A DNA stretch of 30,188 bases from a virus. Within the stretch, counting starts at the first letter, position 1. Each line of letters starts with the position of its first letter. A program made the translations under genes and the position numbers. The stretch lies in the IMG/VR virus record IMGVR_UViG_3300024348_000173, positions 1 to 30,188 of that record. One strand, 5' to 3'. A model generated the notes under the pieces. The model saw only the letters and a program-made list of their open reading frames with translations, had not been told where the DNA came from and did not search any database. Below, piece by piece: positions 3,408 to 30,188 of this stretch.

Positions 3408-3550
3408 AATTTAAACTGGTATACTACAGCGGTTCGAATGTTATTCACAGCTGGACGTTTGACAATAAAGCGTTGTGTAATTGGAAAAAGAAAGAACTAA
3501 GGTCAAGGGGACTTTGTTTATTAGGTAATTTTAGAATAGAAAAAGCATGA
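3404..3550 (+). CDS. Small basic protein, 48 aa, unknown
   Basis: ATG at 3404 overlaps the stop of the previous gene, and its stop TGA overlaps the next ATG (3547), giving a continuous coupled chain. The 48 residues start MKFKLVYYSG and carry a basic stretch (WKKKELRSRG, about 27-36) that could bind nucleic acid. Two Cys residues (25 and 38) do not form a recognisable zinc motif. No family recognised. Confidence 0.65.
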   Translation: MKFKLVYYSGSNVIHSWTFDNKALCNWKKKELRSRGLCLLGNFRIEKA

Positions 3551-3948
3551 ACGACAAAATAATAGAAGTAATCCGAGTTTTTATTGATCGTGACGGATTA
3601 AACACACCAAACAGAAAACGCCAACAGATTTACAAAAAGGCGTATTTACAACACAAGCTAAAGGAATGCGGACTAACTTACAAGGCTATAGCTGAAATGT
3701 TCAATATGACGCACGCCAGCGCTATACATAACATTAAAACGCACTACATTTTAGTTCAATACCACAAAAACGAATACGAGGCTTATATATATGAATACTT
3801 AGAGACTCTAGACGGCTATAAAGTAGAACCAAAAACACGGAATTTAATAGAAGACATTAACAATTGTGCTAATTTATACCAGTTAAACAGAGTTAAACGC
3901 TGGATTCGTGAAAAAAAATATGAAATAGATGCAACTTTAATAGAGTAA
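3547..3948 (+). CDS. DnaA domain IV-like DNA-binding protein
   Basis: A 133-residue protein whose N-terminal half (about 18-65) resembles the DNA-binding domain IV of DnaA. A basic RKRQQIYKKAYLQHKL helix is followed by LTYKAIAEMFNMTHASAIHNI, where the THASAIH stretch corresponds to the DnaA signature around DHTTVLH. The AAA+ part of DnaA is absent, so it cannot open an origin by itself. Stand-alone domains of this kind occur in phages and could recognise DnaA boxes, mark the phage origin, or divert host replication; this is inference. The C-terminal half is helical and charged with no clear domain. It lies just upstream of the structured RNA and the replication genes. Confidence 0.68.
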   Translation: MNDKIIEVIRVFIDRDGLNTPNRKRQQIYKKAYLQHKLKECGLTYKAIAEMFNMTHASAIHNIKTHYILVQYHKNEYEAYIYEYLETLDGYKVEPKTRNLIEDINNCANLYQLNRVKRWIREKKYEIDATLIE

Positions 3949-3954
3949 ATACGT

Positions 3955-3962
3955 TATATTTG
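3955..3962 (+). promoter_or_regulatory. Possible promoter -7 element ahead of the structured RNA
   Basis: TATATTTG matches the Bacteroidota -7 box exactly and would start transcription near 3969, right at the first hairpin. No good TTTG lies 19-21 bases upstream (only TTTA at 3936-3939), so it may be weak or need an activator. Without it, the RNA would be transcribed from the early promoter. Confidence 0.5.
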
Positions 3963-3967
3963 TACAC

Positions 3968-4058
3968 GCGTTCATCCGACATTATAAACGCAAAGGTATT
4001 ATTTAGCCATTTTAATGAACAAGAGGTCGGATGCTTGGGATTTAAAGTGGCTTTTTTT
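3968..4058 (+). ncRNA. Structured leader RNA with complementary hairpin loops over an intrinsic terminator
   Basis: Hairpin 1 pairs GCGTT (3968-3972) with AACGC (3987-3991). Hairpin 2 pairs AGCCATTTTAA (4005-4015) with TTAAAGTGGCT (4042-4052; 11 bp, one G-U) and is followed by seven T (4052-4058), as in an intrinsic terminator. The loop of hairpin 1 holds CATCCGAC (3973-3980), and the loop of hairpin 2 holds its perfect complement GTCGGATG (4026-4033), so the loops could kiss or form a pseudoknot. A competing pairing, GTTCAT (3970-3975) with ATGAAC (4015-4020), would disturb both stems. The region lies between the DnaA-like gene and the replication initiator and has no coding frame of note. 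It could be an attenuator of the replication genes or a short separate RNA of about 90 nt. No known RNA family recognised. Confidence 0.62.
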
Positions 4059-4078
4059 ATGCTGAAAAATTAAATACA

Positions 4079-4693
4079 ATGAGTAAAGAACTTCCATTCT
4101 TTAAGTTTAACGCCACCGAGTGGATAACTGGTAACATAAGTTACGAATCATTTGAACTTCAAGGCGCATTTATTAGCGTATGTGCTGAATACTGGAATCG
4201 TAATAACCAAATGACAATAGAAGAAGCAAAGCTGCGTTTACGTAATGCCGAAATAGTTGATTTATTAATAGCAAAAGGATATTTAAAAACGAAAAAAAAT
4301 AATTTAGTTATTAGATTTTTAGATTTAGAGAAACAAGAAATAAAAGCTAAACGTTTGAAACTCAGTGAATCTGGACGCAAGGGTGGCTTAAGCAAGGCTA
4401 AAGCGTCGCTAAAGCAAGGCTCTAGCATTATAGATAAAGATAAAGAAGAAGATACTATAATAGTTCGCAAACAAAAGTTTGGCGATAAATTAAAACCTTT
4501 TTTAGAATCTTATGAAAAGCAAATGATTAGGGAATTTTTTGACTATTGGACTGAACACGGCGACAAAGACAAGAAAATGCGATACGAAAAACAGACTTCG
4601 TTTAACATTGAATTACGCTTAAAGACATGGCTTAAAAATAAAATCGAAAGAAATAAACCTAAATTTAATTTACCCACTACAATTATAGACTAA
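4079..4693 (+). CDS. Replication initiator / replisome organiser-like protein (Lin1244/Lin1753-like N-terminus)
   Basis: 204 residues. The N-terminal part (1-75, KELPFFKFNATEWITGNI and onward to a short winged-helix-like segment LIAKGYLK) resembles DUF4373/Lin1244-Lin1753 and DUF1376-type domains found at the start of phage replication proteins. The middle (about 95-130) is polar and basic with SGRKGGLSKAKA, a typical linker. The C-terminal part (YEKQMIREFFDYWTEH, later FNIELRLKTWLKN) matches the C-terminal helical end of phage replication organisers. Such proteins bind the origin and load the helicase, which is encoded directly downstream with a one-base overlap of stop and start. Domain names are from memory. 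Confidence 0.72.
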   Translation: MSKELPFFKFNATEWITGNISYESFELQGAFISVCAEYWNRNNQMTIEEAKLRLRNAEIVDLLIAKGYLKTKKNNLVIRFLDLEKQEIKAKRLKLSESGRKGGLSKAKASLKQGSSIIDKDKEEDTIIVRKQKFGDKLKPFLESYEKQMIREFFDYWTEHGDKDKKMRYEKQTSFNIELRLKTWLKNKIERNKPKFNLPTTIID

Positions 4694-5682
4694 TGTACAA
4701 AAGACTAACAAACGTAAATAACGAACTTTTCGATATACGCCAACAGAAAGACGTACGCGGAAAGTCAATAGGCTGGGACTGGGATTTATTACCGTACACA
4801 ATAAAAGAAGGCTGCACTACTTATATAGGTTCTGCGCCAGCTAGTGGAAAAACGGAACTTTGGTTTGAAATTCTTATAAACCTTTCGTGTTTACATAACT
4901 GGAATCATGTAATATTTTCGCCAGAAACTGGTAGTAGTGCTGAAATATTCGCCGAACTATGTTACAAGTATATCGGAAAACCCTACGTACAAGGTCAAAA
5001 CTCTATGTCGAACAGCGAACAAGTAATAGCTGAAATGTTTATTAACGAACATTTTATTGTAATTGATCCAATAGACGAAGACCTAACTATTACAAAATTT
5101 TACGAACTAGTAGACGAAATAGAGAAAAAAGAGGGCATGAAAATACACACCACAACTATTGACCCGTGGAACGAACTAACCGAGGAATTTATACAAGCTG
5201 ACCTAGGACGCGAAGATAAGTATCTTAGTAGGATTTTAGGACAAGTAAGAAAAAACGCGCGTAAAACTGGACGGCATAACTGCGTAATTAATCACGTACG
5301 CGACCAACCTATGGTAAGTAGTAAAACAATAGCTGGAACCGACATAAGTTATTTCCCTATGCCTAGCGCTAGAGACTTCGCGGGCGGTCAAGTTTGGTTT
5401 AGAAAAGGTCTAAGCGTATTAATACCATGGCGACCACCTTACGGCTTGTTGGATTCAGAGGGTAACGGCGCAGAAAAAAACGAAGTACATTTAAAAGTAG
5501 CCAAAAGCAAACCGAAAGGCGTATCGAAAAACGGAGTTTATAAGTTATATTTGGACTTAGATAAATACCAGTATTATATGCTAGATTTTAAAGGGAATAG
5601 GATTTACGCAAATAGGGAAAAGAAACAAGCGCCACAGCTTAAAATGACAAATTTAGGACACAAATTAAAATCAATGCAATAA
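4693..5682 (+). CDS. RecA/DnaB-superfamily replicative helicase
   Basis: 329 residues with a P-loop SAPASGKTE (47-55), a Walker B-like strand TTTIDPWNEL (D157), and a DnaB motif-3-like strand NCVINHVRDQ (H201). A C-terminal segment, FAGGQVWFRKGLSVLI, resembles the DnaB region that follows the mobile loop. The N-terminal domain of DnaB is missing, as in many small phage helicases. It would unwind DNA at the fork after loading by the upstream initiator-like protein; the two genes overlap by one base. No primase domain is seen, so host DnaG is probably used. Related AAA proteins without proven helicase activity remain an alternative. Confidence 0.78.
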   Translation: MYKRLTNVNNELFDIRQQKDVRGKSIGWDWDLLPYTIKEGCTTYIGSAPASGKTELWFEILINLSCLHNWNHVIFSPETGSSAEIFAELCYKYIGKPYVQGQNSMSNSEQVIAEMFINEHFIVIDPIDEDLTITKFYELVDEIEKKEGMKIHTTTIDPWNELTEEFIQADLGREDKYLSRILGQVRKNARKTGRHNCVINHVRDQPMVSSKTIAGTDISYFPMPSARDFAGGQVWFRKGLSVLIPWRPPYGLLDSEGNGAEKNEVHLKVAKSKPKGVSKNGVYKLYLDLDKYQYYMLDFKGNRIYANREKKQAPQLKMTNLGHKLKSMQ

Positions 5683-29733: not shown

Positions 29734-30188
29734 AAAAACTAGACATTCAAGCTATTAAACAAGTACGTTTAAAAGACAATCAGTATTTTGCTGAAAGTTC
29801 ACCTAAGACGCAGATTTATTTACACCACACGGCGGGAAATGGCAATGCTGAAGGGGTTTCAAGGTATTGGAATGGTAACGACAGCCGAATAGCTACGGCT
29901 TTTATCATTGGTGAAAACGGAACGATTGTACAATGTTTTTCATCTAAGCATTGGGCGTGGCATTTAGGTATTGATCAAGAAGATTTCGCTAGAAATGGCG
30001 CTAAATATTCAAACTTAAATAAACTATCTGTAGGTATCGAGGTTTGTAACTGGGGTTATCTTAAAAAGAAAGGTGACAAGTATTATAATTACGCTGGCGG
30101 TGTAGTTAATCCGTCTTACGTTACTGAACTAGAAACACCTTACAAAGGTTATAAGTATTGGTATAAATACAGCGACGCACAAATAGAG
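29730..30188 (+). CDS. N-acetylmuramoyl-L-alanine amidase (endolysin), N-terminal part; continues at base 1
   Basis: Encodes residues 1-153 of the amidase; the frame runs off the window end and continues at base 261 of the left copy. The zinc-ligand start LHHTAGNG (H32), FSSKHWAWHLG (70-80) and VGIEVCN (E104) are all visible here. The start ATG lies in the holin stop. In the region shared with the left copy, the four base differences are synonymous, so both versions give the same protein. Confidence 0.93.
   Translation, partial: MKKLDIQAIKQVRLKDNQYFAESSPKTQIYLHHTAGNGNAEGVSRYWNGNDSRIATAFIIGENGTIVQCFSSKHWAWHLGIDQEDFARNGAKYSNLNKLSVGIEVCNWGYLKKKGDKYYNYAGGVVNPSYVTELETPYKGYKYWYKYSDAQIE
29929..30188. 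repeat. Terminal direct repeat, right copy
   Basis: Counterpart of 1-260, with T instead of C at 30056, 30059, 30074 and 30089. The overlap offset is 29,928 bases, which is the inferred genome length. Confidence 0.93.

Follow-up and report, generated by a model that had tools for sequence, protein, structure and literature searches.

A kissing-loop leader RNA at the head of replication operons in flavobacterial phages, a candidate transcription attenuator

The put leader RNA of phage HK022, made of two hairpins and close to a promoter, influences termination: it contacts RNA polymerase and so acts at remote terminators. The P4 CI RNA immunity leader is a structured leader of a phage replication operon in which RNA-RNA pairing, between a processed RNA and the two target sites seqA and seqC, is tied to premature termination (PMC4825925). 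In the guanidine-IV riboswitch (mepA motif), found upstream of guanidine export genes, the loop of a 5' hairpin kisses the loop of the terminator hairpin; this contact impedes complete formation of the terminator stem, and as that stem grows it shortens the linker and so works against the kiss (PMC11611296). The HMP-PP riboswitch (thiS motif), with a conserved loop and two exclusive stems, lies as a regulatory fold, possibly with a pseudoknot, inside an intrinsic terminator hairpin (PMC6478431). Among the described RNA motifs of the Flavobacteriaceae is the Flavo-1 RNA, RF01705 (PMC9723704).

Here we describe a phage leader in which the loops of two hairpins pair with each other over a predicted intrinsic terminator. 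Unlike put, its second hairpin stands directly before a U run and its loops pair; unlike the P4 leader, both pairing partners are loops of one fold. Whereas guanidine-IV serves guanidine export genes, the leader precedes phage replication genes, its kissing strands are freely variable and covary, and its internal loops differ between subtypes. In contrast to HMP-PP, it has four non-overlapping helices and no ligand pocket conserved across subtypes. It has no cmscan match to Flavo-1, and searches of Rfam 15 with the leader and its relatives returned no family at gathering score; the best weak matches of a relaxed search were RsaH (25.3 bits, threshold 50) and IMES-4 (16.2 bits, threshold 48). 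The sequence-only reading, which recognised no known RNA family here, is borne out in this respect. The open-licence literature yielded no description of the element and no transcriptome of FCL-2 infection. A kissing-loop leader over a terminator is a known kind; what looks new is the class, its setting in phages and the fact that its architecture is conserved and its sequence is not.

The window, meaning the whole stretch of DNA analysed, is a viral contig of 30,188 bases and carries the leader element on its plus strand. The features are as follows.

3547..3948, + strand: upstream gene for a small protein, DnaA-domain-IV-like helix-turn-helix by eye; stop codon 7 nt before the -7 box
3955..3962, + strand: -7 promoter box TATATTTG, Bacteroidota sigma-A type TAnnTTTG
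3968..3991, + strand: hairpin H1, 5-bp stem and 14-nt loop; 5/5 pairs with compensatory changes and 91.6% paired in 44 homologues
3973..3980, + strand: kissing strand k1, CATCCGAC; partner 4026-4033
3981..3986, + strand: loop 1, 3' half, ATTATA; 6 nt long in every homologue (44/44)
3992..4004, + strand: single-stranded H1-H2 linker, AAAGGTATTATTT; 13 nt in the window, 13-14 nt in 40/44 homologues
4005..4052, + strand: hairpin H2, 11-bp lower stem, internal loop, 4-bp apical stem and 10-nt loop; from covariation and the MFE fold
4026..4033, + strand: kissing strand k2, GTCGGATG, within the H2 loop; from covariation and the loop-swap test
4052..4058, + strand: T run at the 3' side of H2, predicted to act as an intrinsic terminator and to give a ~92-nt RNA its 3' end; retained across the alignment
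4079..4693, + strand: first downstream gene, putative replication protein (phrog_19415, phrog_29280); ATG 20 nt past the T run
4693..5682, + strand: putative replicative helicase / primase-helicase ATPase (phrog_5482, phrog_239)

The H1 stem pairs GCGTT (3968-3972) with AACGC (3987-3991), and its loop consists of k1 followed by ATTATA. H2 is built of a lower stem (4005-4015 with 4042-4052), an internal loop (UGAA, 4016-4019, facing GGAU, 4038-4041) and an apical stem (CAAG, 4020-4023, with CTTG, 4034-4037), closed by a loop of AG plus k2. The match between k1 and k2 is exact over 8 nt, with a duplex energy of about -11.8 kcal/mol. The two hairpins with exactly complementary 8-nt loops are therefore present as described in the sequence-only reading, and the fold is kept in homologues; the terminator-type second hairpin also stands, its 11-bp lower stem and the following T run both being conserved. 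With a covarying lower stem of this length and U7 directly after it, H2 qualifies as a predicted intrinsic terminator; a simple terminator scan gave no match at H2 because it accepts only loops of 3-8 nt. A third pairing, GTTCAT (3970-3975) with ATGAAC (4015-4020), had been proposed as a built-in competitor of the stems. It occurs in the window, but all six pairs form in only 2 of 44 homologues, and we regard it as a coincidence.

The nested fold of the window sequence alone is unremarkable (z = -1.3) and does not decide the matter; it is the comparative evidence that makes the fold real. Viral loci were gathered through relatives of the first gene, relatives of the helicase and a DNA pattern, and a kissing-aware descriptor was run on 2.0 Mb of sequence with the reversed sequence as control. 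It gave 228 matches against 16 in the control, and 202 against 0 at scores of at least 62. In the alignment of 44 homologues, 28 pairs including the loop-loop helix were 97.6% formed, with double-sided changes at 22 of them. The compensating changes anticipated for stem 1, stem 2 and the loop-loop helix were found in all four helices: beside H1, the H2 lower stem was 98.6% paired (double-sided changes at 7/11 pairs), the apical stem 98.9% (4/4) and the kissing helix 99.1% (6/8, with zero G-U). The covariation score was 0.769, compared with 0.223 for shuffles and at most 0.123 for slid pairings, and none of 500 shuffles reached the observed value.

Since the 44 aligned homologues had been selected with the descriptor, a second test was made on matches to a pattern that fixes neither H1 nor the six variable bases of k2. 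Among nonredundant viral matches (n=66), loop complementarity of at least 7/8 was found in 66/66, against 14% after k2 was swapped between sequences, and perfect 8/8 complementarity in 61/66, against 0.1%. The apical stem was complete in 65/72 pattern matches (7% in the control). Bacterial genome contigs gave 8 pattern matches; the 6 that entered the loop test account for every match without loop complementarity and are chance-like. Complementarity under sequence change had been set beforehand as the refuting test, and the loops vary constantly and stay complementary. G-U pairs far outnumber A-C mismatches (86 vs 6), so the folded molecule is RNA from the plus strand, and the constant length of the loop 1 3' half and the nearly constant one of the linker are a sign of fixed geometry. 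Taken together, the comparative data make a conserved RNA fold close to certain.

The -7 box noted at the 5' end of the leader is conserved: a box of any form was found in 113 of 124 leaders, and exactly TATATTTG in 96. Its start usually lies 11-13 nt upstream of H1 in the leader set, and in the window it ends 5 nt before H1. As the TAnnTTTG box of F. psychrophilum spans -12 to -5 (PMC9723704), the RNA start is predicted at ~3967, one base before H1, and the predicted RNA would run from there to the T run, ~92 nt. No TTG -33 box stands at the usual spacing before the window's leader box, and the same holds for most homologues. Two other TATATTTG boxes of the window, at 2275 and 7419, have TTG 21-22 nt upstream like ordinary sigma-A promoters; unlike these, the leader promoter may need an activator. 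A promoter-like context is also repeated on the minus strand at 89 and 30017 (regions 1-~130 and ~29930-30188), which may point to a direct terminal repeat and hence to a genome that is complete.

The position just before replication genes is borne out by the gene calls and by homologous loci. The element usually opens the replication operon, usually in one copy per phage and on the operon strand; H1 commonly starts 17-20 nt past the stop codon of a gene that lies upstream in the same orientation, and the distance from the T run to the next ATG is usually 20-26 nt. The window's upstream gene, whose product has no Pfam match above threshold, belongs to the commonest upstream family (C2), which precedes 72 leaders. 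The first downstream gene varies, being either a replication protein or a small ORF of one of several unrelated kinds with replication protein and helicase behind it, and four loci (L196, L160, L246, L241) carry a different downstream module with an ~800-aa protein that we read as primase/VirE-like. Because the first gene is exchanged while the leader stays, the leader is part of the transcription unit as a whole, not of any single gene. Phages FCL-2, V186, 11b, P12002L, phi18:3 and JQ have this architecture before replication genes too, in unrelated sequence. Confinement to the replication context does not hold strictly, as shown by the 'antirepressor' operon of Gundel_1 and a second copy in phi18:3. 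The slot between leader and replication genes (4058-4079 in the window) stands out as a hot spot where small ORFs of ~60-75 aa, unrelated to one another (clusters C5, C8, C9, C10, C19 and C30), occur in L006, L007, L078, L083, L130 and others.

A model match was found in 28 of 33 phage records, exactly one per record in 27 of those. Most of the remaining records (L095, L099, L107, L111) have a second form, type 2, with a kissing helix of 5-7 bp and an AGUA/GAA internal loop in place of the UGAA/GGAU of type 1; the leader of L119 probably lies outside the fetched stretch. Model matches among named phages were Tenacibaculum phage Gundel_1 (54.7 bits), Flavobacterium phage FL-1 (53.8) and Cellulophaga phage phi18:3 (48.2). 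The descriptor, combined with a 5' -7 box, located the architecture with unrelated letters in FCL-2 (CATCCAC), 11b (CGGGCAGG) and JQ (GCATCCTAC), in P12002L (GGTCGTAG) ahead of a 'primosomal protein', and in two copies in phi18:3. V186, V156 and FCV-1 share GTAGAGAG/CTCTCTAC where FCL-2 has CATCCAC/GTGGATG (read by eye and checked). In the named phages the descriptor gave 16 matches in total, some of them weak, and the control with complementary, non-antiparallel strands gave 1, at a true site. Only weak matches at chance level were obtained in Cellulophaga phi38:1 (first 50 kb), phi12:1 and phi46:1, Nonlabens P12024L, Flavobacterium 6H and Bacteroides B40-8, and a model search of 398 bacterial genomes of one order gave 0 matches under stricter filters, by which weak matches may be lost.

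Three further arrangements were seen in these records. The second copy in phi18:3 (L278:23596, CCTTCAC/GTGAAGG) lies ahead of gp059, away from the replication genes. Gundel_1 has a possible second kissing element (L271:5066-5180), GGTTAGTA/TACTAACC after a TACATTTG box, ~1 kb before its main element. A distant relative of the first gene (L051:~1000-1130) has a different long complementary arrangement, CGGTGATG...CATCACCG, with a terminator-like hairpin before the ATG.

With moderate confidence we read the element as a transcription-attenuation leader in which the loop-loop helix would set termination before the replication genes; that it acts in cis as an attenuator of the replication operon is somewhat the likelier case, and the leader RNA probably decides the amount of replication protein made. 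Host RNA polymerase would start near 3967, judging from the -7 box, and H1 would fold at once in the nascent RNA. The apical loop of H2 would emerge next and could kiss H1 through 8 Watson-Crick pairs, the fold seen in the covariation. Having made the 3' arm of H2 and the U run, the polymerase would either stop near 4058, leaving the ~92-nt RNA, or read into the replication and helicase genes. The kissing helix would be the part that sets stop against read-through, a balance for which a protein, another RNA or transcription speed are candidate modulators. For the direction of its effect two readings stand close together: kissing may work against full closure of the terminator and favour read-through, which we hold only tentatively, and nearly as likely, if a little more doubtful, is that it pre-organises and strengthens the terminator and favours termination. 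By our own rough estimate the stacked H1-kiss-H2 rod measures ~32 bp, or roughly 90 angstrom, and the linker of 13-14 nt reaches ~80-95; the linker thus barely spans the rod, and a conflict between kissing and full terminator closure, as in guanidine-IV, is plausible. The alignment shows no two-state switch, because all four helices are compatible on paper.

Against attenuation stand the length of H2, long for an intrinsic terminator, and the short gaps before genes that are common in dense phage genomes, because of which a stand-alone RNA gene ahead of the operon would look alike. Such a small RNA might have the host as its target or shield an RNA end, and merely happen to sit before the replication genes. 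It would explain why the ends coincide with promoter and T run and why the fold is compact; we think it improbable, since operon-head position and strand are kept while the first genes change and no conserved sequence could serve as a fixed antisense seed. Somewhat less remote, although still unlikely, is a riboswitch or autoregulatory site, with termination tuned by a metabolite or a phage protein that docks on the kissing complex together with the conserved internal loop. Among known riboswitches there is precedent for a kissing loop and for an aptamer placed within the terminator (PMC11611296, PMC6478431), and unpaired bases are conserved in type 1 (AAUGAA/GGAUUU, AC-A-NNAUA in loop 1, a purine before k2). 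These bases are, however, wholly different in type 2, FCL-2, V186 and P12002L, where context and topology are kept, so there is no common pocket; the differing internal loops of types 1 and 2 likewise argue against one conserved small-molecule pocket, and the genes share no metabolic pathway beyond replication. An element acting as DNA, such as a replication origin cruciform, would fit the adjoining replication genes and has next to no probability: the strand-specific wobble pairs rule it out, and the element also occurs in the other contexts of Gundel_1 and phi18:3. A peptide-leader attenuator was rejected as well, since a frame read from the AUG in H2 is closed by a stop after 2-4 codons in most homologues and runs on open in others, as was an antisense-controlled attenuator of the pT181 type, an antisense TAnnTTTG being present in only 2/44 homologues.

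The exchange of leaders between phages bears on a further alternative. Phages that are 93-98% identical in the flanks have had their leaders replaced: the window and L078 share 93.8% identity upstream, 100% in the promoter, 75% in the leader and 96.8% in the replication genes, the leader-swapped pair L004 and L006 gives 94.6 / 68.7 / 97.7%, and L132 (type 1) and L140 (type 2) have flanks of 93.3% and 97.0%. The kissing sequence is common to only 68 of 142 pairs at 95-98% helicase identity, against 93 of 99 at 98% or more, and FCL-2 and V186, of one genus, have unrelated loop pairs. These observations would suit a trans-acting, self-specific RNA: the accumulated ~92-nt RNA would pair with the loops of nascent leaders of the same phage and cause premature termination, giving negative feedback on the replication genes or exclusion of a second phage with the same loop type, in the manner of plasmid copy-control RNAs or of P4 CI RNA, which ends transcription of the P4 replication genes by pairing within its leader (PMC4825925). 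We consider this rather unlikely. Each loop has its partner on the same molecule, which should give cis pairing the kinetic advantage; the window phage yielded no integrase; and the swapping could be plain recombination. Leader swapping may indeed be either plain recombination promoted by the conserved flanks or the outcome of selection for differing loop-pair specificity. More doubtful still is a self-recognition code in which every phage has its own choice among many complementary loop pairs and the terminated RNA shuts down replication operons only where the loop pair matches; if true, it would provide copy control and like-against-like exclusion through RNA folding alone, and phages would trade loop types as cassettes to evade it. 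In several swapped pairs the swap is accompanied by gain or loss of small ORFs, and one locus (L010:2886-2980) has an apparent recombinant leader of CCTTCGAC-type H1 and GTCGGATG-type H2, whose kissing helix is left with one mismatch and one G-U.

Because architecture and not sequence is conserved, divergent forms of the leader are missed by sequence-based RNA searches, and a kissing-aware search recovers them. The leader is present in the cultured phages FCL-2, V186, FL-1, 11b, phi18:3, Gundel_1, P12002L and JQ and is thus directly testable, and its loop pairs are natural orthogonal parts for RNA regulation in Bacteroidota. Compensating changes in an element of nearly free sequence, at the heads of replication operons in many flavobacterial phages, point to a shared and apparently undescribed step that would time or limit their DNA replication.
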